A stretch of DNA of 33,057 nt from an uncultured Oscillospiraceae bacterium (GTDB taxonomy: Bacteria > Bacillota > Clostridia > Oscillospirales > Oscillospiraceae): assembly GCA_944387635.1 (NCBI GenBank), contig CALXFT010000023.1:1-33057 (forward strand), written 5' to 3'. The translations under genes were made by a program, and so were the position numbers. Within the stretch, counting starts at the first letter, position 1. Each line of letters begins with the position of its first letter. Under the pieces are notes generated by a model, which did no database searches, was not told the DNA's origin, and was given only the letters and a program-made list of their open reading frames with translations. Below are positions 4,301 to 33,057 of the stretch, piece after piece.

Positions 4301-4345
4301 TCACGGCGGAAGCCAACGCCGCGCCGTAAGCATTTACGCATATAT

Positions 4346-4475
4346 GCTAGTCGCCTTTATACAGCAGAAATTGGAGGGGAATCGTACCGGCTCAGAAACC
4401 TGCGCGCCCCTTGGCTCTCCCTTTCGGGCAAGCCAAGGGCGGCCCGCAAGGCCGCAGGCTGGGCCAAGTCGATAA
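4346..4475. repeat. Short, internally deleted copy of repeat family B
   Basis: The left part (from 4346, TGCTAGTCGCCTTTATACAG) resembles the B-element start TGCTTATCGACTTTGCGCAG. The right part ends with AAGTCGATAAGCA, the exact inverse of that start. Between them is the CTTGGCTCTCCCTTT segment also present in the copy at 15925. The GC-rich body of the full element is missing. Together with the promoter region just upstream, this accounts for most of the gene-free stretch 4209-4552. Confidence 0.5.
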
Positions 4476-4513
4476 GCACCTGCGCATATTCAGAGCTTCC
4501 CCAGTTTCGCGTG

Positions 4514-15924: not shown

Positions 15925-16246
15925 TATTTGTCGACTTAACACGGCAAAGCGTTTCAGAAAACGTCAGCCTTATGCATAGTGTTTCGATCACAGCCAGGCC
16001 CTTGGCTCTCCCTTTGGGGTAAGCGAAGCGCAGTCGCAGGAGTGAATGACAGCGTAAGTGGGCAGTCAGAGCCGCCCTCCCCCGGACCCCTCCCGGCGCG
16101 CTCTTCGTTTCGTGCAGGTATTGCCTTAAGCGCCAAATCGGTGCGGTCTCCGTGTCAATCGCAAGCATCCTGGCAACTGCCCAGACGGAAGCCTGCATAG
16201 GAGGAACGGTTATCTGAATTTTCTGTTGCGCAAAGTCGATAAGCAT
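15925..16246 (-). repeat. Repeat family B, long copy
   Basis: Read on the minus strand from 16246, the first 177 bases match 32855 onward at about 88% without gaps. The copy continues through a GC-rich body and a segment found also at 4414 (CTTGGCTCTCCCTTT in plus orientation). The outer end near 15930 (GTCGACTT) is a degraded inverse of the AAGTCGATAAGCA end at 16234-16246, so the unit has imperfect terminal inverted repeats. An open frame (15869-16246, minus) runs through it but is not convincing as a gene. This repeat and the next fill most of the gene-free stretch 15802-16367. Confidence 0.65.
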
Positions 16247-16290
16247 AATCCTTAAAATTAATCAAAAAGGCATCGCCTTGCGGCGCTGCC
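16247..16290 (-). repeat. Fragment of repeat family A joined to B
   Basis: On the minus strand this reads GGCAGCGCCGCAAGGCGATG then CCTTTTTGATTAATTTTAAG, matching the central hairpin and inner right arm of the A elements (24267-24302). The hairpin GGCATCGCC-TTGC-GGCGCTGCC lies at 16269-16290. It directly abuts the B copy. After it, up to the next gene, there is only a TGTGCCGC-AGCC-GCGGCACA hairpin at 16330-16349, just before the ribosome binding site. Confidence 0.6.
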
Positions 16291-16367
16291 GATGACGGAT
16301 TCGTCAGATCTTCCTTTGCGGAAAATTCCTGTGCCGCAGCCGCGGCACAGGCTGTGAGGTGTTTTCT

Positions 16368-17282: not shown

Positions 17283-18089
17283 ATGGACGAATATTTGCAG
17301 CGAGCCCTGGAGAGGGCTCTGGCGGACTTTCCGGGAAAGTATTCCCTTTACTGCGTGGAGCTGGATACCATGACCCCGGCGGCGGCCATTGCCCCCCAAA
17401 CCCGGGTGGTGTCCGCCTCCACCATCAAGGTCGCCATTATGCTCTGCGCCCTGGAGGAGGTCAATCAGGGAAGGCTGACCCTAGACCGTCCGGTGCCATT
17501 GACACAGGAGGACTTCTGCGGTGACACCCGGGTCTTTGAGCCGGGATACCGGAAGGACAGCCACAGCTTGTGGGAGCTTCTGTACTGGATGATCGCGGTC
17601 AGCGACAACTCCGCCACCAACGCCCTGATCACCCTGCTGGGCTATGACCGGGTCAACGGCTGGTGCGAAGGACTGGGCCTGGAGCACACCAGCCTGGGGC
17701 GGAAGATGCTGGACTTCGAAGCCGTGGCGCGGGGCCGCAACAACTACACCTCGGCCCTGGACCAGTTCCGGATGTACCAGGCGTTGTATGAGGGCCGTAT
17801 CCTGAACGAATCCCTGCGGAAGGTTGCCTGGGACCTGCTGGGCCGCAGCCGCAGCTTCGGGAGTCTGCTTCGGTATATCCCGGACCCGGTGACGGTCTGC
17901 CACAAGCCCGGCGGTCTGGACCATCTGAGCCACGACGCGGGGGTTTTCCTGCTGCCGGGGAAGCCCTACTACCTGGGAATCTTCACCTGGGACGGTCCCT
18001 CCCTGGACGGGGAGCAGGAGCAGGCGCGGTGCATCGGCCGGCTGTCCCGGCTGGTATATGACCATATGAAGGAGAAATGCAAGCCATGA
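17283..18089 (+). CDS. Class A beta-lactamase-fold serine hydrolase without signal peptide
   Basis: A 268-residue protein of the Beta-lactamase2 type. The active-site motifs have class-A spacing: Ser46-x-x-Lys49 (STIK), Ser107-Asp108-Asn109 (SDN) and Lys208-Pro-Gly in HKPGG where class A enzymes have K-T/S-G. The Glu166-x-x-x-Asn170 omega-loop pattern is not recognisable; the region reads DFEAVARGRNNYTSALD. There is no signal peptide or membrane anchor, unlike true beta-lactamases, which act outside the membrane. It lies between an LD-carboxypeptidase gene and an NlpC/P60 gene with which it shares an ATGA overlap, so an intracellular peptidase or esterase acting on D-amino-acid-containing peptides is more likely than antibiotic resistance. 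The substrate is not known. Confidence 0.82.
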   Translation: MDEYLQRALERALADFPGKYSLYCVELDTMTPAAAIAPQTRVVSASTIKVAIMLCALEEVNQGRLTLDRPVPLTQEDFCGDTRVFEPGYRKDSHSLWELLYWMIAVSDNSATNALITLLGYDRVNGWCEGLGLEHTSLGRKMLDFEAVARGRNNYTSALDQFRMYQALYEGRILNESLRKVAWDLLGRSRSFGSLLRYIPDPVTVCHKPGGLDHLSHDAGVFLLPGKPYYLGIFTWDGPSLDGEQEQARCIGRLSRLVYDHMKEKCKP

Positions 18090-19745: not shown

Positions 19746-19763
19746 TCCCGCTTCCAAAAAAGT

Positions 19764-19887
19764 CTTACTGATTCTCTTTTAAAATCTTTATGTGATTTTC
19801 CATTCCGAAAATCACATATTCGGCAGCGCCGTAAGGCGATGCCTTCTTGATTAAAATTAAATATTTAATCAAGAAATAGTATCAGAG
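19764..19887 (+). repeat. Repeat family A, standard copy
   Basis: About 124 bp with imperfect terminal inverted repeats (TACTGATTCTCTTTTAAAAT at the left; CTGATACTATTTCTTGATTA reading in from the right). It folds as three hairpins in series: TATGTGATTTT with AAAATCACATA (19789-19818), GGCAGCGCC with GGCGATGCC, and CTTGATTAAA with TTTAATCAAG. It has no coding capacity. It sits between the ends of convergent genes. Confidence 0.75.
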
Positions 19888-23428: not shown

Positions 23429-23471
23429 GCGCGCAGCCTGTGGTATGGAGCAACGACTCCGGGCTGCGTGC
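23429..23471 (+). promoter_or_regulatory. Stem-loop before the MATE ribosome binding site
   Basis: GCGCGCAGCC (23429-23438) pairs with GGCTGCGTGC (23462-23471), and inside it GGAG (23447-23450) pairs with CTCC (23457-23460). There is no T-run. It is followed by GCTTTCATG, a 9-mer also present in the 5' arm of the leader hairpin at 23120-23128, then AAGGAGG. Confidence 0.5.
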
Positions 23472-23494
23472 TTTCATGTGCCAAGGAGGAATTT

Positions 23495-24160
23495 ATGGAA
23501 ACATCCAACGCGTTTTTGGGTACGGAGCGAGTGGGGACTCTGATGCGGCGCTACGCCGTTCCGTGCATCATTTCTTTGCTGGTGGGCGCCCTTTACAACA
23601 TCGTCGATCAGATCTTCATTGCCAACGCCAGCTATCTGGGCTCTTACGGCAACGCCGCCAACACGGTGGTCTTCCCTCTGACCGTGGTGGCGCTGGCCAT
23701 AGCGGTCATGATCGGCGACGGCTGCTGCGCCTTCGTCAGCATCTGCCTGGGAAAGGGCGACACGGACTCGACCAAGCGCAGCGTGGGCAATGCCGTGGTG
23801 GTCTGCGTGGCAGTGAGCCTGGTCCTGACGGTGGTATACCTGGTCTTCCAGGACCCCATCATCGCCATGTTCGGCGGCACGGTGAATGAGCAGACCTATC
23901 TGTGCATGATGGTCCTGGCCTGTGTGAACAAGGCTTGCTTCATCTTCCTGCAGGCCATGGGTAAGGCCCTAGCGTCCACGATCCTGTCCATGATCCGGGA
24001 GGTGGTCTTCGGCGTAGGCTTCGCTCTGCTGCTGCCCCGGCTGTACGGCCTGGACGGGGTGCTGTACTCCATGCCTGTGTCCGATGTGCTGATCTTTCTG
24101 GTGGCCATCTTCCTGATCGCGGGCACCTATCGGGAACTGAACCGCGCCATCGCGTCCTGA
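23495..24160 (+). CDS. MATE-family transporter with a large in-frame internal deletion
   Basis: A 221-residue membrane protein; MATE exporters are normally about 450 residues with 12 helices. Residues 1-135 match the N-terminal part (AFLGTERVGTLMRRYAVPCI, then SLLVGALYNIVDQIFIANAS and a region ending MFGGTVNEQTY). The next residues, LCMMVLACVNKACFIFLQAM to the end (FLIAGTYRELN), are the family's C-terminal part. The middle, roughly 220-230 residues including the second half of lobe 1 and most of lobe 2, is absent, and the join near position 23900 stays in frame. The start follows AAGGAGGA, and codons are normal. A functional monomeric pump is unlikely; it may be a recent remnant or possibly a half-size protein that dimerises. 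Confidence 0.85.
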   Translation: METSNAFLGTERVGTLMRRYAVPCIISLLVGALYNIVDQIFIANASYLGSYGNAANTVVFPLTVVALAIAVMIGDGCCAFVSICLGKGDTDSTKRSVGNAVVVCVAVSLVLTVVYLVFQDPIIAMFGGTVNEQTYLCMMVLACVNKACFIFLQAMGKALASTILSMIREVVFGVGFALLLPRLYGLDGVLYSMPVSDVLIFLVAIFLIAGTYRELNRAIAS

Positions 24161-24330
24161 TACTGATTCTCTTTTAAAATCTTTAATCAATTCAGATTAA
24201 AGATTTTAATTAGAGAATCATATGAGACAGGAATATGTGATTTTCTATTCCGAAAATCACATATTTGGCAGCGCCGCAAGGCGATGCCTTCTTGATTAAA
24301 ATTAAAGATTTTAATCAAGAAATAGTATGA
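24158..24330 (+). repeat. Repeat family A, long copy
   Basis: 173 bp with terminal inverted repeats of about 30 bp (left TGATACTGATTCTCTTTTAA, right end reading in TCATACTATTTCTTGATTAA, both continuing AATCTTTAAT). It starts at the TGA stop codon of the MATE gene. Hairpins in order: a near-perfect 25-bp one from 24164 to about 24214, ATATGTGATTTT with AAAATCACATAT (24233-24264), GGCAGCGCC-GCAA-GGCGATGCC (24267-24288), and CTTGATTAAAAT with ATTTTAATCAAG (24291-24319). The first hairpin is an extra module compared with the copy at 19764. Confidence 0.8.
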
Positions 24331-24346
24331 GATCCTTGAAAGACAG

Positions 24347-24386
24347 ATCCGGCGGTCCTGCCGAAGCGGGACCGCCGGATTTTTTT
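24347..24386 (+). terminator. Terminator downstream of the MATE gene
   Basis: A 12-bp perfect stem (ATCCGGCGGTCC, 24347-24358 with 24369-24380), a 10-base loop and six further T. It also lies 20 bp beyond the stop of the large minus-strand gene and may serve it weakly. Confidence 0.8.
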
Positions 24387-24404: not shown

Positions 24405-27400
24405 TCAGTTGATCTTCAGGCCGTACCAGGCCGCACCTTCTTTGTGCCAGCCCTGGGTACCCAGGTAGGTGTACTCCAGCAGGGAGTTGGTGTAGTGGTG
24501 GTGGTGCATGGTGGCGTTGGGATTGTAGACGCGGTAGATGGTCACGCCGTCATCCTTGGGCGCGCTCTTGCACACTTCGCCCTCCAGAATCCAGCCGCCG
24601 TCTACCAGGTTGTCCCGCTCTGCGGTGTCCATGGTGTACAGGTGGCTGTCGTTGCCCGGGTTGTAGAGCCGGAAGATGGGGTCGCCCTCCTTGGGAGCGT
24701 ACCAGGCGATGCCCTCATAGATCCAGCCGCCGTCTTCCAGGGTGTCCCGCTCCACGGTGCTGTCGGTATAGTGGTGTTTGCCGTTGCCGGGGTTGAAGAC
24801 ACGGTAGATGGTCACATAGTCCTCGGTCGCAGGAGCTTCGCCGCAGACCACGTCGGCACGGTCACGGACACGAATCCGGGGGAAGGGGCCCTCGGGGGCG
24901 TTGAAGGTGTCGTCGTAGGAGGCCAGGCCGGTGACGGTGATGGAAACGCCCTGGGCCAGATTCTTCACATCCTCGTCGGTGGTGATGTAGCCGTCGATGA
25001 AGACCCGGGCCACATTGCCCTCGGCGTCCTTGACCAGAATGGTCTGGACCAGATCGTTGGCCAGTTCAAAGCTCTCCACAGTGCCCTTCAGGGTAATCAG
25101 CTGGCCTTCCACAGAGCGGTCGTTGATCTGGGCGGCAGTGACTTCCACGGGGGTCACTTCGTTGTCGCGGCTCAGGACGGTGATGGAGCTGACCTGCAGT
25201 TCCGGCTCACCCTGGTAGAACTCAGTAGTGCCGGTGATGCGGACTTTGTCGCCGACCTTGTAATTGCCGGCCACGGGGAAGCAGCAGATGCCGCCGGTGG
25301 CGTCCTGAACGTAGATGCAGTCGAAGAAGGCGGTGTCCTTGTCATAGCCGGAGGCGTTGGAGGTGACAATGCCTTCAATGGTATACTTGTAGCCGGTCTC
25401 GGTCTGTGCACGGACCACGGCGATGTCGGTGGCGGTGACGGGATTGGTCTCGCCCAGCAGGTTCTGGCAGATCTTGTAGTTGGAATAGTTCTTCTCGGAA
25501 CCGCTGTCCTCAATGGTGGCCTGAACCTCGAAGTTGCTCATGAAGGCCGCGCCGGAAACCACGATCAGGCCCTTGCCGGACAGCTGCTCGGTGGCCATAA
25601 TCAGCAGGCGGTCATCGCCCTCCGCATAGGTGTATTTCGGGGTGCTGTCGCCACCCAGGCCGTCGGAGTCGCTGTCCCTGCTGTAGGTGGAGCTGTGGGC
25701 AAAGACCACGGGGGTCACGGTTTCGGGCAGGGAGCCGGACGCACCTTCCACGTAGATGGAAGCGCCGCCGTAGTGGCTGAAGACCTCGGTGTAGAGCCGG
25801 TCATTGGGGTGCTCCGGATCCACTTCCACGCCCTCGGTCAGGAAGCTGTCGCCATAGGTGTTGAAGTACAGCCGCTGGGTCTGGCCGCCGTTGAGGGTGT
25901 CGTCGTTGGTGCCGTCGTCGGAGATCCGCAGGCTGGAGCCCAGAGCGGTCAGAATCTTGTTCTGCTGGGCTGCCATGTGGTCCTCGGCGGGGAAGTCGGC
26001 GTAGTGCTCGTAGTAGTCGGACCAGCCGGCCAGAACGACCGTGCCGCCGTTGCTGTTGAACTCGACGATGGCGGCGATCTCCTCATCGGAGTAGGTGGCG
26101 TAGGGATCCCGCAGCGCGCTGCCGTTGCGGCGGGAGGGAGCGGTCAGGATCAGCATCTTGTACTTCTCGTTGGAGCAGGCGGCGATCAGCTCTTCGCTGG
26201 TGTCCAGCTCCACGGTGCGGCAGGCGTACTCAGCGGCCAGGGCGCCGAAGTTGCCCATGGAGTCCTGGTAGTTGCCGGCCACATACTCGTTGTAGTGGGA
26301 AGCGTCGATGCCGATGTAGGCCAGGCTGTCGGCGTCGCTGACGTCCAGGGTCACATCCTTGGTGAAGGTGTATTCAATGCCTTCCTGCTCCACCACGGCG
26401 GTGACGGTGATGGTCATGAGCTTGGCCGTGTCGGGGGTGTAGGCAAAGTCCACGGACAGGGTGCCGGAGGCGGGAATGGTGTAGCCAGTGGTGTCCGTAC
26501 CCAAAACCACGGAGCCGTTGGTGGTGTAGGTGATGGACTTGACGGCGGCGTCGGAGGCTTCGCTGTTGAAGAAGGTGGTCTTCAGAGTCAGCGCCTCACC
26601 GGTAACGGGGTAGGCGGTATCGCTCTCCGCGGAGGAGATGCCCAGCTTCAGGCTCTCGCCTACCCACACAGGGGCGGTGACGGCCAGGTCGCCGTCGCCC
26701 TGGGTGACCTTGACGTAGTAGTAGCTGTAGTCGGGGTCCAGAGTCGCGGTGAGCACGCCGGCGGCCAGCTCGCTGGGATCGGACCAGCTGTAGGCGGTCT
26801 TACCGGAGTTGACGATCAGCTCCACCTTGCTGATGGAGTCGGAGCCGTCGGGATCGTAGACGGTGACGTGGAAGTTCAGGGGGCTGGAGGTGTCGGAAAT
26901 GCTGGAGCCCATGACAGAATCGTTGACGGCGTAGGTGATCTCCAGGTTCTTATCCTCGGTGGCGTACATCCGGCGGGCCCGGATGGCCTCGTAGATACCT
27001 TCCTCGCTCCAGTTGTCGGTGAGGATGACGTCACGGGCGTCGTTGGCGTTGCCCCACTTGCCCTTGTGGTTGTCCTGGTTGTTGGTGGGAGCCACGTGCC
27101 AGCCCTTGTCCAGGGCCATGATGTAGTACTCATAGCTGGGGTAGTAGCCGCCGGCGCCGATCTGGCCTTCTCCGTTGCCGACCTCCACCAGCTGGATACG
27201 GGTGTCGATGACGCCGTCCCAGTAGGCAAAGTCGGTGAAGGTGCCGAAGGTGGAGCCGGGATGGTTGAACTGGCTGATGCTGTCGGCGCCCTCGGGCTGA
27301 GACAGCAGGTTGTAGTAGGCCTTCAGGCCCGCGTCGGAGGTCTTGTTATTCAGGGTGGTGGTGTTCCGGGACACAATGCCTTCGGTGTTGAAGGTGTTGA

Positions 27401-30400
27401 TGTGGCCGGGACCGCCGGACCAGGTCATTTCAAAGCCCGCGATGGCGATGACGTCGGACTGGCTGGCGTTGAAATCGGCGATGGCGCCCTTATACGCGTT
27501 CCACTTGGCGGCGCTGGAGCCTGTGGCCTTGCTCAGGTCATACAGAGCGCCCTCGGGGTTGGCCGCGCCGGACTCATCGAAGTAGTTGGAGTGGTCGGTG
27601 AAGGCCACGAAGTCCACGTTGGCGGATTCGGGCAGACTGGACACGTAGGAAAGGGCGGACTCCAGGCTGCCGGAGCCGTCGGAGTAGGTGGTGTGGGAGT
27701 GGAGCTGGCCGAAGTAGAAGTCATAGGTGGTCTCGCCTACGGTGAAGAACCAGGATACGGTGCCGCTGACGCCGTCGGCCCGGGTGGCGGTAATGGTCAC
27801 CGTGGTACGGCCCTCTTCCATGGCCTCGGGGGACCGATAGCTCAGAACGCCCTCTTCGTAGGTGGGAGTCACTTCCACGTCGTTGACGGTCATGACGAAG
27901 GTGGGATTCTCACCGGCGTTGATGACCTTGGCGCTGATCAGGGGATGGCGCTCCTCCATGGTCTCGGAGCCTTCCGCAGGGGTCAGGTCCGTGAACACGG
28001 GCTCGTCCTTGACGGTGATCTCGGCAGTGCCGGTGAAGGCGGTGCCCAGGGTGTCCACAGCGGAGACGGTGACGGTGAGGGTTTCGCCGGTGATCTGGTC
28101 CGCCGGGATCATCACGGTGTAGACGCCGTTTTCCGCAGTGACGGTCAGGTCCGTCTGGCCGAGCTTGGCGATGGGAAGCTCGGTGACGCCGAAGACCGCG
28201 TCAAGGGTAAAGGTCAGCGTATAGTCCACACCCACATAGGCGTCGGCCAGAGAGCCGAAGACCACGGCGGGCTGGTTGACAATGCCGCCGGACACATTCA
28301 CATCCTCCGCCACAGGGTAGAACTGGAAGGTGTAGATGGTATAGTCGGTGACGTCGTACATGCTCCAGGTCTTGTAGGTGCCGCCGTAGTACTCCAGGTA
28401 CTGGCTGTACTGGCCGTTAAACTTGGCGGTGCGGCTCTCCAGGGTGTAGCCGGTACCCTGGACAGCCAGGGTCCAGTCGGCGTCCTCGGAGGCTTCGGCG
28501 GTGTAGAAGGCGTTGCTGCCGGTGCCGTTGGAGCACAGGTAGCCGTCACGCTCGTTGTAGAAGCGGTAGTAATCCCCGTTCTTTTCGACCTTGAAGACCC
28601 GGGCGCCGTTGGCGGGACGGGCCGCGCCGTCCTCAATGGCGGCAGGGGCGTTGGTAATGGAGGGGCTCTCCACGTTGTCATCCTGACCGGCCAGAACGCC
28701 CTGGGCGCTCAGGTTGTAGATGACCACCATATCGCCCTCTTCCGGCAGGCCGCCGGTAACGGGGGGCTCTTCTTCCTCAACCACCAGGTACAGCTGCTGG
28801 GCGAAGAGAGCTTCGTCGTTGATGGTTCTGTAGGAGCTCCAGTTGCCCTTGGAAGCGTACCACTCCAGGTAGTAGCCCCGGACTTTGTTCTGGATGTAGT
28901 AGCAGCCCTCGGTGGCGGCTTCGGTGATGTTCCAAGCGGTGTTCACGTCGTCCAGGGGGGTGGAGCTGAAGCTTTCGCCCATGGACAGCTTCTTGCCGTC
29001 GGCAGTGGAGAAGGTGTATGTGCCGTCTTCGTTGATGCCCACAGTCCAAAGCTCCGTGGAGCCGTAGCCGGAAACAACGCCGTCGGTGACGGTGATGTCA
29101 ACGCCGGTGTTGTAGAAGCCGGAGTAGACCGAGGACAGGGCCTTGCCGTTGGCGGGGTTGAAGACCACCACAGTGTCGCCGTCCAGCAGCTGGGTCAGAT
29201 CGGTAATCAGACCGTTTTCACGCTGAGGCGGAACCACATAGAAGGCCTGGGCGAAAAGGGCTTCGTCGTTGATGGTTCTGTAGGAGCTCCAGTTGCCCTT
29301 GGAAGCGTACCACTCCAGGTAGTTGCCCCGGACGTTGTTCTGGATGTAGTAGCAGCCCTCGGTGGCGGCTTCGGTGATGTTCCAGGCGGTGTTCACGTCG
29401 TCCAGGGGGGTGGAGCTGTAGCTTGCGCCCATGGACAGCTTCTTGCCGTCGGCGGTGGAGAAGGTGTAGGTGCCGTCCTCGTTGACGCCTACGGTCCAGA
29501 TCTCGGTGTCGCCATAGCCGGAGGCAACGCCGTCGGTGACGGTGACGTCAACGCCGGTGTTATAGAAGCCGGAGTAAACGGAGGACAGGGCCTTGCCGTT
29601 GGCGGGGTTGTAGATAACCACCTGGTCGCCGTCGTTCAGAATCGGCGCCGCGGGGGCCGAAATGATGTAGGCGAATGTGACTTCTTCACTGTCGGTCATG
29701 CCGTCCTTGGTGGCCTTGACGGTGAAGGTGGTGTCTTCGGTAATGGCGATGGGGTCGGCATATTGCGTGTACTCGGCCTCGGCGGAGGTCTTGTACCAGA
29801 TGACAGCGCCCTCGGTGGCGCAGGAGAAGGACACCTCCGTGCCGGAGGCTACTTCACCGGCCTCGGGAGAGGCGGTGGGAGCGGCTACGGTGGTGGGTTC
29901 CTCAGCCTTGATGGTATAGGCGAAGGCAGCCGCTTCACTGGCGATCATGCCGGCCTTCTGAGCCTTGACGGTGAAGGTGGTGTCTTCGGTGACGGCGATG
30001 GGAGCGGTGTACAGGGTCCAGCTGCCGTCGCCGGTCTTGACGTAGATCTCAGCGCCCTCCGTGCCGCAGGCGAAGCTGACCGTGGTTCCGGATTCCACTT
30101 CACCGGCGGCAGGGTCAGCAGTGGGAGTGGAAACAGTCTGCTCGTCCACCACCAGGTACAGCTGCTGGGCGAAGAGGGCCTCGTCGTTAATGGTGTCGTA
30201 GGAGCTCCAGTTGCCCTTGGAAGCGTACCACTCCAGGTAGTAGCCCCGGACGTTGTTCTGGATGTAGAAGCAGCCCTCGGTGGCGGCTTCGGTGATCTTC
30301 CAGGCAGTGTTCACGTCGTCCAGGGGGGTGGAGCTGAAGCTTTCGCCCATGGACAGCTTCTCGCCGTCGGCGGTGGAGAAGGTGTAGGTGCCGTCTTCAT

Positions 30401-31412
30401 TAACGCCTACGGTCCAGATCTCCGCGCCGCTGTAGCCGCACAGAACGTCCTCGGTCAGGGCGACGTCAACGCCGGTATTGTAGTAGCCGGAGTAGACGGA
30501 GGACAGAGCCTTGCCGTTGTCGGGGTTGAAGATAACAACCTGGGCCCCTTCGGTCAGCTCGGCCAGATCGGTGACCAGGCGGCTGACGGGATCTTCACCC
30601 TGGGTGGGGCCGGGGTCCTCAGTGTCCACGGTGTAGGCGAAGGTGACTTCCGCACTGTCGGTCATGCCGTCCTTGGTGGCCTTGACGGTGAAGGTGGTGT
30701 CTTCGGTGACGGCGATGGGGGCGGTATACTGCGTGTACTCAGCCTCAGCGGAGGTCTTGTACCAGATGGAAGCGCCCTCGGTGGCGCAGGAGAAGGTCAC
30801 CTCCGTGCCGGAGGCTACTTCACCGGCCTCGGGAGAGGCGGTGGGAGCTTCCACGGTTTCGGGCTGGGGTTCGGTATCGCCGGTCACCTGATACAGAGTG
30901 AACACATTGGGATACCCATTGGGATTCTCGGAGATAGTGGTGCTTTTATATGCCCGGAACTTGTTACCGGCGCTTTTGTTGCTGGCCAACATCACGGTGT
31001 CCTCACCGGTGCCGCTGAAGGTAAAGCCAGTGTCAGAGACGGCGACTGCCCAGTTGTAGGAGCCGGAAGAAATGCCGTTTTTGTTGCCGCCAGTGGGAGC
31101 AACGCTGACGCCGTTGGCGTCGGTGAGGACAACAGTACTGTCGTCGTTGACAGTGATGGTCCATACCGGACTGCTCTCGTCAGGCTCTGTCACAGCCGCG
31201 GCTGTGATCCAAGTGCCGTCCAGAACGCCGGGGGCATAGCCCGTAGACGTTACCATAACATACTGTCCGGTAACCAGTTCTTCCAGAGTTGTGATCTGGG
31301 TATAGGCTGCCGTGCCCTCTGCCAGAACGCTTACCGGGAGCATGGTCAGGACCATGGCAGCCAGCAGCACAATGGACAGCAGGCGTTTCAATTGTGGGTT
31401 GTCGATTTTCAT
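24405..31412 (-). CDS. Giant secreted multidomain protein with PHP (CehA/McbA-type) metallohydrolase domain
   Basis: A 2335-residue exported protein. Order: signal peptide (1-31, ending SVLA); a beta-rich module (about 32-170); CHB_HEX_C-type Ig-like repeats (about 177-260, 427-500, 504-584); three near-identical modules of about 140 residues (about 280-420, 590-726, 737-877) with FNPANGKALSSVYSG and YYLEWYASKGNWSSY; a divergent fourth; Ig-like regions; a PHP domain (about 1230-1500) with all metal motifs (GQLHSHTTYSDGSG, FTDHSNYF, GFEMTW, GGPGHINTF, FNHPG, NNQDNHKGKW); an Ig-like part; a glutamine-amidotransferase-like alpha/beta region (about 1690-1895); an OB-fold domain (about 1990-2080, IEGIV...YVQDATGG); and DUF5648 repeats at the C-terminus (YRVFNPGNGKHHYT, EGIAWY). 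No LPXTG or SLH anchor. AAAGGAGG precedes the ATG. The hydrolase target, perhaps a phosphoester, is unknown. Confidence 0.93.
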   Translation of the reverse strand: MKIDNPQLKRLLSIVLLAAMVLTMLPVSVLAEGTAAYTQITTLEELVTGQYVMVTSTGYAPGVLDGTWITAAAVTEPDESSPVWTITVNDDSTVVLTDANGVSVAPTGGNKNGISSGSYNWAVAVSDTGFTFSGTGEDTVMLASNKSAGNKFRAYKSTTISENPNGYPNVFTLYQVTGDTEPQPETVEAPTASPEAGEVASGTEVTFSCATEGASIWYKTSAEAEYTQYTAPIAVTEDTTFTVKATKDGMTDSAEVTFAYTVDTEDPGPTQGEDPVSRLVTDLAELTEGAQVVIFNPDNGKALSSVYSGYYNTGVDVALTEDVLCGYSGAEIWTVGVNEDGTYTFSTADGEKLSMGESFSSTPLDDVNTAWKITEAATEGCFYIQNNVRGYYLEWYASKGNWSSYDTINDEALFAQQLYLVVDEQTVSTPTADPAAGEVESGTTVSFACGTEGAEIYVKTGDGSWTLYTAPIAVTEDTTFTVKAQKAGMIASEAAAFAYTIKAEEPTTVAAPTASPEAGEVASGTEVSFSCATEGAVIWYKTSAEAEYTQYADPIAITEDTTFTVKATKDGMTDSEEVTFAYIISAPAAPILNDGDQVVIYNPANGKALSSVYSGFYNTGVDVTVTDGVASGYGDTEIWTVGVNEDGTYTFSTADGKKLSMGASYSSTPLDDVNTAWNITEAATEGCYYIQNNVRGNYLEWYASKGNWSSYRTINDEALFAQAFYVVPPQRENGLITDLTQLLDGDTVVVFNPANGKALSSVYSGFYNTGVDITVTDGVVSGYGSTELWTVGINEDGTYTFSTADGKKLSMGESFSSTPLDDVNTAWNITEAATEGCYYIQNKVRGYYLEWYASKGNWSSYRTINDEALFAQQLYLVVEEEEPPVTGGLPEEGDMVVIYNLSAQGVLAGQDDNVESPSITNAPAAIEDGAARPANGARVFKVEKNGDYYRFYNERDGYLCSNGTGSNAFYTAEASEDADWTLAVQGTGYTLESRTAKFNGQYSQYLEYYGGTYKTWSMYDVTDYTIYTFQFYPVAEDVNVSGGIVNQPAVVFGSLADAYVGVDYTLTFTLDAVFGVTELPIAKLGQTDLTVTAENGVYTVMIPADQITGETLTVTVSAVDTLGTAFTGTAEITVKDEPVFTDLTPAEGSETMEERHPLISAKVINAGENPTFVMTVNDVEVTPTYEEGVLSYRSPEAMEEGRTTVTITATRADGVSGTVSWFFTVGETTYDFYFGQLHSHTTYSDGSGSLESALSYVSSLPESANVDFVAFTDHSNYFDESGAANPEGALYDLSKATGSSAAKWNAYKGAIADFNASQSDVIAIAGFEMTWSGGPGHINTFNTEGIVSRNTTTLNNKTSDAGLKAYYNLLSQPEGADSISQFNHPGSTFGTFTDFAYWDGVIDTRIQLVEVGNGEGQIGAGGYYPSYEYYIMALDKGWHVAPTNNQDNHKGKWGNANDARDVILTDNWSEEGIYEAIRARRMYATEDKNLEITYAVNDSVMGSSISDTSSPLNFHVTVYDPDGSDSISKVELIVNSGKTAYSWSDPSELAAGVLTATLDPDYSYYYVKVTQGDGDLAVTAPVWVGESLKLGISSAESDTAYPVTGEALTLKTTFFNSEASDAAVKSITYTTNGSVVLGTDTTGYTIPASGTLSVDFAYTPDTAKLMTITVTAVVEQEGIEYTFTKDVTLDVSDADSLAYIGIDASHYNEYVAGNYQDSMGNFGALAAEYACRTVELDTSEELIAACSNEKYKMLILTAPSRRNGSALRDPYATYSDEEIAAIVEFNSNGGTVVLAGWSDYYEHYADFPAEDHMAAQQNKILTALGSSLRISDDGTNDDTLNGGQTQRLYFNTYGDSFLTEGVEVDPEHPNDRLYTEVFSHYGGASIYVEGASGSLPETVTPVVFAHSSTYSRDSDSDGLGGDSTPKYTYAEGDDRLLIMATEQLSGKGLIVVSGAAFMSNFEVQATIEDSGSEKNYSNYKICQNLLGETNPVTATDIAVVRAQTETGYKYTIEGIVTSNASGYDKDTAFFDCIYVQDATGGICCFPVAGNYKVGDKVRITGTTEFYQGEPELQVSSITVLSRDNEVTPVEVTAAQINDRSVEGQLITLKGTVESFELANDLVQTILVKDAEGNVARVFIDGYITTDEDVKNLAQGVSITVTGLASYDDTFNAPEGPFPRIRVRDRADVVCGEAPATEDYVTIYRVFNPGNGKHHYTDSTVERDTLEDGGWIYEGIAWYAPKEGDPIFRLYNPGNDSHLYTMDTAERDNLVDGGWILEGEVCKSAPKDDGVTIYRVYNPNATMHHHHYTNSLLEYTYLGTQGWHKEGAAWYGLKIN
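28780..30880 (-). repeat. Intragenic repeat modules in the giant secreted protein
   Basis: Three DNA-level copies of an approximately 410-bp unit lie at about 30151-30570, 29233-29640 and 28780-29200; long stretches are identical (for example around GGAGCTCCAGTTGCCCTTGG). Copies of an approximately 240-bp Ig-like unit lie at 30630-30880, 29910-30130 and 29660-29900. Their near-identity suggests recent duplication or gene conversion and makes the locus prone to length change. Confidence 0.85.
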
Positions 31413-31652: not shown

Positions 31653-32837
31653 ATGAAGCTAAAAGACAAGTCCGCCGCCCAGCTTTGGCTGGGAAAGAAC
31701 GGCCCCACGGCCATAGTTCTCGCCTGTGGGATCCTGATCTTTCTGCTGCTGCGCCTGTGGGCGGCTCCGGCGGAGACGGAAGGCACGGGGGCCGTGGAAT
31801 TTGCCGAATACGACCGGGGCATGGTCCTGCAGGTCCTGGCCGACAGCACCGAGGCGGACCCGGCCTCCGACGGGGCCTACCGGGGAGAACAGCTGCTGCT
31901 GGTGGAGGTCCGCTCCGGCCGGTACCAGGGCGAGGCCTTGCAGGTGTCCAACTTTGTGGGGCCCCTTTACGGCGTTCCGGTGTACCAGGGGGACCCGGTG
32001 ATGCTCACCATCTCCACCTATGCCGACGGCAGCCACACTGCGGTGGTGTTTGAATACGACCGGACCTGGGTCCTGGCGGCGGCGGCGGCCCTGTTCCTCC
32101 TGGCCGCGGCTCTGGTGGGAGGAAAGACTGGCTGCAAGTCCCTGGCGGGCCTGGCCATTACCCTGGCCACCCTCTTCGGGGTCCTGCTGCCCATGCTGCT
32201 TCGGGGCGCGCCGACCCTGCCCGCGGTCTTCCTTGTCTGCGTGTATGTGGCGGTTATGAGTCTGACCATACTGGGCGGGATCCGGCGCAAGACGGTCTGC
32301 GCCATGCTGGGCACCGTGGCCGGAACGGCCCTGGCCATGATCTTCGCCATGGCGGTACAGCATTTCGCCCGGATCGACGGCCTGCGGCTGGACGACGTGG
32401 AGCCCATGCTTCAGCTGCGCCAGCAGGGGGCGAACATCGGCCTGCGGGGGCTGCTCACCGGCGGCATCGTCATCAGCGCCCTGGGCGCGGTGATGGACGT
32501 GACCATGGGCATCGCCTCCGCCGTCTGTGAGATTCACGACGCCAACCCGGACCTGGACCGGAGGTCCCTGTTCCGCTCCGGCATGAACGTAGGCCGGGAC
32601 ATGGTGGGCACCATGACCAACACCCTGGTCCTGGCCTTCCTGGGCAGCAGCTTCACCCTGATCCTGTACCTGTATTCCATGGACCTGTCCGCCAACCAGC
32701 TGATCAGCTCCGCCTACTTCAGCGTGGAACTGATCAGCAGCCTGTCCTCCAGCATCGGCGTGATTTTGTCCATTCCCATTACCGCCCTGATCTCAGCCGG
32801 AGCCTTTGCCGCCGGCGCCGGAAAGAAAAGGGACTGA
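31653..32837 (+). CDS. YibE/F-family membrane protein
   Basis: A 394-residue membrane protein of the YibE/F family. Helix 1 (about 18-36) is followed by an extracytoplasmic domain of about 100 residues containing VLQVLADSTE and NFVGPLYGVPVYQGDPVMLT, and then about seven helices. The family core motif GAVMDVTMGIASAVCEIHDANP (shown here in part as ALGAVMDVTMGIASAV) lies near residue 275, followed by SGMNVGRDMVGTMTNTLVLA. The biochemical role is unknown; some members are implicated in transport. ATG 31653 follows GGGAA. It stands alone with its own promoter, and its TGA stop is the first bases of a repeat A end. Confidence 0.9.
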   Translation: MKLKDKSAAQLWLGKNGPTAIVLACGILIFLLLRLWAAPAETEGTGAVEFAEYDRGMVLQVLADSTEADPASDGAYRGEQLLLVEVRSGRYQGEALQVSNFVGPLYGVPVYQGDPVMLTISTYADGSHTAVVFEYDRTWVLAAAAALFLLAAALVGGKTGCKSLAGLAITLATLFGVLLPMLLRGAPTLPAVFLVCVYVAVMSLTILGGIRRKTVCAMLGTVAGTALAMIFAMAVQHFARIDGLRLDDVEPMLQLRQQGANIGLRGLLTGGIVISALGAVMDVTMGIASAVCEIHDANPDLDRRSLFRSGMNVGRDMVGTMTNTLVLAFLGSSFTLILYLYSMDLSANQLISSAYFSVELISSLSSSIGVILSIPITALISAGAFAAGAGKKRD

Positions 32838-32854
32838 TACTGATTCTGTTTTAA
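32835..32854 (+). repeat. Solitary left end of repeat family A, fused to B
   Basis: TGATACTGATTCTGTTTTAA is the A-element left end with one change. It begins exactly at the stop codon of the YibE/F gene, as at the MATE gene (24158), and is directly followed by a B element. Confidence 0.7.
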
Positions 32855-33057
32855 TGCTTATCGACTTTGCGCAGCAGAAAATGCGGATATCCGTTCCTTC
32901 CATGCAGACTTCCGTCTGGGCACCTGCCAGGATGCTTGCGCTTCACACGAGCACCCCGCCGATTTGGCGCTTAAGACAACACCGGCACGAAACGAAGGGC
33001 GCGCCGGGAGGGGTCCAGGGGAGGGCGGCTTTGAGAGCGGGAGCCAAGGGGATGCTT
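32855..33057 (+). repeat. Repeat family B, copy cut by the window end
   Basis: Starts TGCTTATCGACTTTGCGCAG and matches the minus strand of the copy ending at 16246 without gaps for 177 bases at about 88% identity. After GGGCGGCT the two copies differ by a deletion here and rejoin at GAGCCAAGGG. The rest lies outside the window. No gene is apparent after 32837. Confidence 0.75.

Follow-up and report, generated by a model that had tools for sequence, protein, structure and literature searches.

Element A, a MITE-like repeat with four covarying hairpins and 3-bp target duplications in an uncultured Oscillospiraceae genus

In the window, i.e. the whole stretch of 33,057 nucleotides that was analyzed, positions 24158-24330 represent a single copy of a dispersed 173-nt element, here named element A, which is built as TGA, 167 nt and TGA. 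The four hairpins of element A are conserved across species by compensatory change, and its copies are flanked by direct duplications of 3 bp. With a probability of about 0.7, element A is a MITE-like non-autonomous DNA transposon that depends on an enzyme supplied in trans and whose mobility selects for hairpin-forming DNA. Covariation is usually taken to prove that an RNA is functional; in element A it occurs in what appears to be mobile DNA with clean target duplications and few signs of a preferred RNA strand, which should caution searches that infer RNA families from covariation alone. If the reading is true, element A would be a rare natural case in which selection for the folding of DNA is recorded, and a test system for structure-specific recognition as a driver of DNA-transposon mobility.

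Copies of element A in the window, the genome and the genus

The canonical copy of element A lies at 24161-24327 (plus strand; 124.9 bits). The TGA on its left side (24158-24160, plus strand) belongs to the 3-bp target duplication and doubles as the stop codon of ORF 23468-24160; the second TGA of the duplication lies at 24328-24330 (plus strand). Between them follow, all on the plus strand, hairpin 1 including the left terminal repeat (24164-24220), the unpaired linker TATGAGACAG (24221-24230), hairpin 2 (24231-24266), the GC-rich hairpin 3 (GGCAGCGCC...GGCGATGCC; 24267-24288) and hairpin 4 (24289-24321). The terminal inverted repeats, TACTGAT..., are imperfect, and the arms 24157-24187 and 24301-24331 are 81% complementary across 31 nt. 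The predicted folding energy of this copy is -77.9 kcal/mol (z -12.6), and none of 200 shuffles was as stable.

A second copy, which lacks most of hairpin 1, was located at 19763-19884 (plus strand; 94.0 bits). Its exact ends are 19766 and 19881, with TCT on the left and TCA on the right, i.e. with one mismatch in the duplication, and it folds with -43.9 kcal/mol (z -7.6), again with 0 of 200 shuffles as stable. A sequence-only reading of this DNA had correctly located both copies and the hairpins common to both; its boundaries are corrected here to the exact elements between the TGA/TGA and TCT/TCA flanks. The 25-bp hairpin module that it regarded as an addition to the long copy is in fact the canonical hairpin 1, mostly missing from the short copy. 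The long copy is the canonical form, and the copy at 19763-19884 thus looks like a deletion derivative.

Further traces of element A were identified in the window. A left end (TGATACTGATTCTGTTTTAA) at 32835-32854 (plus strand) begins on the stop codon of ORF 31653-32837 and is broken by a repeat of a different family, family B. On the minus strand, a remnant of hairpins 3 and 4 (16247-16292; 21.6 bits) abuts another family-B repeat, and degenerate left ends were found at 110-132 (2 mismatches) and 1787-1809 (3 mismatches). The family-B repeats themselves are located at 32855-33057 (plus strand; terminal inverted repeat TGCTTATCGACTT, reaching past the contig end), at 15925-16245 (right end AAGTCGATAAGCA at 16233-16245, left end with 3 mismatches) and at 4345-4478 (one exact terminal inverted repeat at 4466-4478).

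Several genes and one hairpin of the window were noted in passing. A GC-rich hairpin with a T run adjoins element A at 24347-24386 and, read by eye, is terminator-like; directly past it lies the 3' end of ORF 24405-31412 (minus strand, 2335 aa), which contains internal direct repeats of ∼95-300 nt that are 72-93% identical. ORF 23468-24160 (plus strand, 230 aa) matches MATE efflux models over part of their length, far under the cut-offs. The protein encoded at 17283-18089 (plus strand) matched class A beta-lactamase models with 88.8 bits, under the cut-off of 200, and the stretch around it also contains an OppC-like permease and a DppA-like D-aminopeptidase match.

In the genome from which the window derives, BLAST with the element A unit gave 93 places (E ≤ 1; overlapping, partial and reverse hits counted). 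With at most 3 mismatches, 44 left ends (0 for a control pattern) and 33 right ends (control 2) were detected, and 22 places matched a covariance model of element A. Family-B ends numbered 88 with at most 1 mismatch (control 3). The covariance model R1 was built from 34 of the 36 rows of an alignment described below (L003 and L008 were dropped), and, when no more than 28 candidates were scored in each genome, it identified element A in 37 of the 136 genomes searched, all of which belong to a single uncultured Oscillospiraceae genus. By BLAST, element A was found in 10 of 60 genomes, all from its own genus (10 of 37, the own genome included), and in 0 of 23 genomes from other families. An exact 23-mer search hit one named record, which is a MAG assigned to an uncultured Oscillospiraceae bacterium; no match was obtained in plasmids and phages, nor in viral contigs scanned with one exact pattern. 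The lack of further copies, of shared boundaries or of compensatory changes had been named beforehand as findings that would speak against such an element, and none of them occurred.

The sequence-only reading had recognized no named family, and the Rfam search agrees with it, as no match reached the gathering score in the window. Below this threshold, element A gave 61 hits, the best with 32.2 bits where 90 are needed; these low hits look like AT-rich hairpin noise, and an Rfam identity was rejected. No description of element A was found in the open-access PMC literature.

The length of 30 elements with paired ends ranged from 61 to 592 nt. The shortest forms (L127, which is the same as L250, together with L135 and L256, from genome G036; L052 from the own genome) are near-perfect palindromes of 61-62 bp, formed from the outer arms of hairpins 1 and 4. 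These are flanked by duplications as well, exact for L127 and L135 and for the middle base only in L052. They are possibly the minimal mobile form; mobility may not require hairpins 2 and 3, or the short forms may have shrunk in place. Other loci carry element A ends that enclose foreign modules, chiefly family B, and many family-B copies are nested in element A. Two elements of 207 nt, L039 in the own genome (C26:3252-3464) and L128 (G013:C25), have differing 3-bp duplications, and the interior of L039 is foreign (TTTACTATGAAAG... and GGGGCAACC hairpins); composites of this kind may have transposed as single units. In three species-level genomes (G143, G066 and G141), L279, L280 and L281 have nearly the same flanks and are apparently the same insertion, which looks like an old shared one and would be useful for dating.

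Target duplication, neighboring genes and the search for the moving enzyme

In the first aligned copies, the base between T and A was equal on both flanks. Among the 30 paired-end elements, taken from the own genome and from related ones, the 3-bp flanks were identical in 24 (7.9 expected from shuffled pairs) and the middle base was equal in 26 (9.15 expected from shuffled pairs). A second set of 70 loci was retrieved following the covariance search, and their ends were placed by motif, irrespective of the duplication; from these loci, 19 without two findable ends and 6 repeat sites were removed. The TNA duplication was exact in 42 of the resulting 45 elements (12.5 expected) and the middle base equal in 44 (13.7 expected), which extends an earlier run on 66 of the 70 loci with 39 of 42 exact. 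The ends of the 36 aligned copies were picked with a bonus for matching duplications, and their 32 of 36 exact duplications are not used as evidence. Since the middle base is equal on the same strand, the duplication is direct; a longer inverted repeat would give the complementary base. The element L320 repeats a triplet other than TNA (TCG/TCG).

The target is a palindrome, TYTNARA, centered on the duplicated triplet, as determined for 83 elements selected for exact duplications: T at -2 in 46, a pyrimidine at -1 in 54, a purine at +1 in 65 and A at +2 in 63 of the 83. Near-identical copies, up to 99.4%, occupy different sites of one genome (L298/L299 in G150), and these sequences point to recent mobility. 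Cross-comparison of the fetched loci gave a single, diverged empty site, L284 for the element L235, in which the junction aligned gap-free with 75% identity over 97 columns. For the copy at 19763, both flanks were matched in G007 and G013 alone (elsewhere one flank), where they are separated by 16 kb or sit on different contigs, and no orthologous empty site was obtained. Duplication, target, dispersal and empty site are marks of a DDE-type transposon and suggest this class for the enzyme.

The gene context was determined for 48 of the 83 elements, after exclusion of 17 with less than 500 nt of flank, 16 without a predicted neighbor gene and 2 inside a predicted gene; L314, with two alternative right ends, is counted twice among the 48, and genes were called by codon usage, with a custom finder whose training set was 11 ORFs of the window. 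The elements lie in 21 convergent, 16 + 9 co-directional and 2 divergent gaps, and at least one neighbor gene ends toward the element in 46 of 48. In 23 of 48 cases the duplicated triplet is the stop codon of a neighbor (12.9 expected for a random TNA of the same gap; P ∼5e-5), 18 times of the right-hand gene (minus strand) and 5 times of the left-hand gene. Every TNA triplet reads TAA or TGA on one strand. The bias toward stop codons may reflect an insertion preference or the survival of harmless insertions, and it suggests a simple way, open to testing, in which the intergenic space of a compact genome can become filled by a mini-transposon.

Transposase searches revealed no autonomous partner with element A termini. 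Matches to DDE_Tnp_1 (PF01609) were obtained in 3 of 8 genomes (G013, G002 and G029), to DDE_Tnp_1_2 (PF13586) in 4 of 41 and, weakly, to DDE_Tnp_4 (PF13359) in 6 of 136, in each case with none in the own genome, a 90% complete draft. IS4/IS5-type transposases were rejected as partners, as they showed only isolated terminus matches with 3 mismatches and none was present in the own genome. No recurring transposase-like ORF was detected behind any of 109 distinct left ends in the fetched loci, and an autonomous copy behind unpaired left ends was discarded, as none of the 114 ORFs behind these ends matched IS1595. Only two pairs of ORFs from different left ends resembled each other: L023/L051, which are neighbors of one place, and L003/L030, presumably ABC-transporter ATPases as judged by an LSGGEQQ motif. 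Draft genomes often lose multi-copy IS, so the absence of the enzyme is weak evidence.

The four-hairpin fold and its explanation

The fold was analyzed in an alignment (A1) of 36 copies from seven genomes, from which L244 and L106, with missing 3' ends, had been dropped; the copies were gathered by similarity and motif, which favors intact ones. A structure of 58 pairs, comprising the closing pairs and the four hairpins, was paired in 94.4% of the cells, compared with 36.5-46.8% in slid controls. Changes on both sides were observed in 31 of the 58 pairs, among them 9 of 15 pairs in hairpin 2 and 8 of 10 in hairpin 4, and the total of 247 double-changed cells compares with 79.8 after shuffling and at most 49 for slid structures. 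The number of further standard pair types was no higher than in shuffles (56 vs. 55.3). RNAalifold, unaided, recovered 44 of the 58 pairs, 23 of them with double changes. The linker TGAGAC beside hairpin 2 is nearly invariant, TGAG and C being identical in all 36 copies and A78 in 34. By eye, copies from one genome tend to have similar hairpin 4 stems and copies from different genomes dissimilar ones, although G018 and G148 each have more than one stem type. That the arms keep pairing while bases change, in a MITE-like element without a transposase, had been proposed by the sequence-only reading and is borne out by the double changes together with the 42 of 45 exact duplications.

Whether DNA or RNA is folded was addressed by comparing GU and AC mispairs in 65 elements (L097, L139 and one duplicate, L301, were dropped). 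Outside the tip of hairpin 1, 23 GU and 26 AC were counted in 2855 cells. In the tip, the count was 54 GU vs. 18 AC, or 44 vs. 7 when the G018-type rows, which sit one column off there, were omitted; 35 of these 44 fall in column 28:48, and without this column the tip contains 9 GU vs. 7 AC. Everywhere except column 28:48, 32 GU thus stand against 33 AC. In column 28:48 itself, U-G is present in 35 of 59 rows, so one U-G pair in hairpin 1 is widely tolerated, and this column lowers the confidence in the best explanation. In co-directional gaps, 9 copies are in sense and 16 in antisense orientation, i.e. no bias toward the sense strand was observed. As GU is about as frequent as AC and a sense bias is lacking, we infer that selection acts on DNA folding and not on RNA folding, probably for mobility. 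The proposal of a folded single-stranded or RNA intermediate therefore holds for the conserved fold, while its RNA variant is disfavored.

Close relatives were compared in the 34 of 52 nearest pairs that differ by at most 8%. Stem sites differed in 54 of 2984 cases (0.018) and unpaired sites in 151 of 1932 (0.078), which means that stems differ 4.3 times less often. Most changed stem pairs in these relatives (38 of 46) were single-sided, with 14 GU, 12 AC and 12 other. Fresh copies would thus decay freely, and the copies still transposing would be those with foldable DNA.

These data bear on what keeps the fold. A host structured RNA, such as a 3'-UTR regulator or a processing or stability element, could have been spread by transposition and kept for its function in transcripts, which would fit the compensatory changes, the nearly invariant linker, the U-G column and the position of element A at gene 3' ends. 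A transcribed structure should, however, favor GU, which is no more frequent than AC elsewhere in the fold, and the 9 sense against 16 antisense copies and the absence of an Rfam family at the gathering score also argue against it, so that this explanation is decidedly unlikely. The suggestion of a domesticated mRNA 3'-end element is correct as to position, but the target duplications show that this position arises from insertion. A plain MITE in which template-switch correction of quasi-palindromes neutrally maintains the long palindromes, with no selection for folding, accounts for the small number of unpaired intermediates and for double changes that are common between species. Under such correction stems should change at about the rate of unpaired sites, yet they do so far less often, and the predominance of single-sided changes shows that correction is not fast; this account is considered unlikely.

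The two remaining alternatives concern the enzyme. Element A is hairpin-rich, gene-less, intergenic and forms variable composites, as would be expected of a palindrome of the REP/BIME or IS200/IS605 type, which a Y1 (HUH) transposase would mobilize through its hairpins in single-stranded form; a 3-bp duplication is not known from such systems, and the 42 of 45 exact duplications contradict this origin, which is extremely improbable. The nesting of A and B repeats and the presence in the genus of IS1595 elements with family-B termini raise the question whether an IS1595-family enzyme moves both. The autonomous partner of family B is an IS of ∼985 bp with an IS1595-family transposase (PF12762, PF12760, NF033547) in G013 and G018, found with TGCTTATCGACTT termini at L215 (G013:C1:800-2100) and L216 (G018:C24:3050-4400). 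Its termini differ from the TACTGAT.. of element A, and of four family-B copies inspected by eye, L215 and L220 showed a legible 10-bp duplication and L216 and L219 lacked one, compared with 3 bp for element A. A 3-bp TNA duplication for family B, hinted at by the nested L057, was exact in 1 of 20 cases and was dismissed. The differing termini and duplication lengths indicate that element A is not simply a derivative of family B, and the IS1595 enzyme, rejected as its partner, is a very improbable source of its mobility.

The MITE-like DNA transposon hence remains the preferred explanation. In the mechanism proposed for it, a transposase supplied in trans would cut TNA with a 3-bp stagger, like IS5/PIF-Harbinger-type DDE enzymes. 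Copies would act as sources only while their DNA folds into hairpins, as a cruciform or single-stranded, and selection for mobility would keep the arms complementary. Landing on a stop codon would recreate it, since TNA corresponds to TAA or TGA on one strand, and insertions at gene ends would be cheap for the host and would persist. Tentatively, the enzyme may even recognize the four-hairpin DNA, probably cruciform or single-stranded, by its shape, so that the arms drift into lineage-specific versions and a stop-favoring 3-bp cut is almost free of cost. No IS family is known to need internal covarying hairpins plus a 3-bp duplication.

Comparison with known systems

Element A is short, gene-less and multi-copy and has terminal inverted repeats and a target site duplication, and it is filed as a MITE and not as an IS5-type, IS1595-type or REP element. 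Its 3-bp TNA (TWA) duplication corresponds to that of IS5/PIF-Harbinger-type MITEs, while an IS5-type transposase was not found in the own genome; TNA is also the duplication rule of IS1031/ISL2. The local IS1595 element has other termini, and the two family-B copies with a legible duplication show 10 bp instead of 3 bp. Assignment to a structured RNA acting in transcripts is opposed by the even GU and AC counts outside column 28:48 and the lack of sense bias. REP/BIME and REPIN palindromes resemble element A in being intergenic, palindromic, mosaic and mobilized in trans; no target duplication is known from them or from IS200/IS605-type palindromes, whereas element A has one. Compared with IS5-family/PIF-Harbinger (PHIS) MITEs, element A has constrained internal hairpins, and no IS5-type partner with its termini was found. 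The canonical Harbinger target site duplication is 3 bp, and PHIS MITEs share with element A this duplication, the shortness, the absence of a gene and the terminal inverted repeats (PMC12730594, in the available text).

Stable folds are described as typical of MITEs in a review on prokaryotic MITEs, in whose available text the term "stop codon" has 0 occurrences (PMC10969869). Intergenic stem-loops of Borrelia plasmids show, like element A, compensatory changes near or overlapping gene ends; they sit on plasmids, and "target site" is absent from the available text (PMC2674063). Closest in its working is BOX of Streptococcus pneumoniae, a non-coding, modular element of 67-637 bp with terminal inverted repeats, target duplications and stable folds, in which 36 annotated genes end with a stop codon supplied by BOX (PMC3049150, in the available text). 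BOX and element A are alike in modularity, terminal inverted repeats, target site duplications, gene ends and stop codons, and differ in host and sequence, the likeness being one of description (PMC3049150, available text). The main text on BOX, as far as available, does not contain "covari" or "compensatory", although in its Figure 2, according to the legend, pairs are colored by how many compatible pair types they show (PMC3049150). Set against BOX, the TNA duplication and the palindromic target are features of element A that were measured here.
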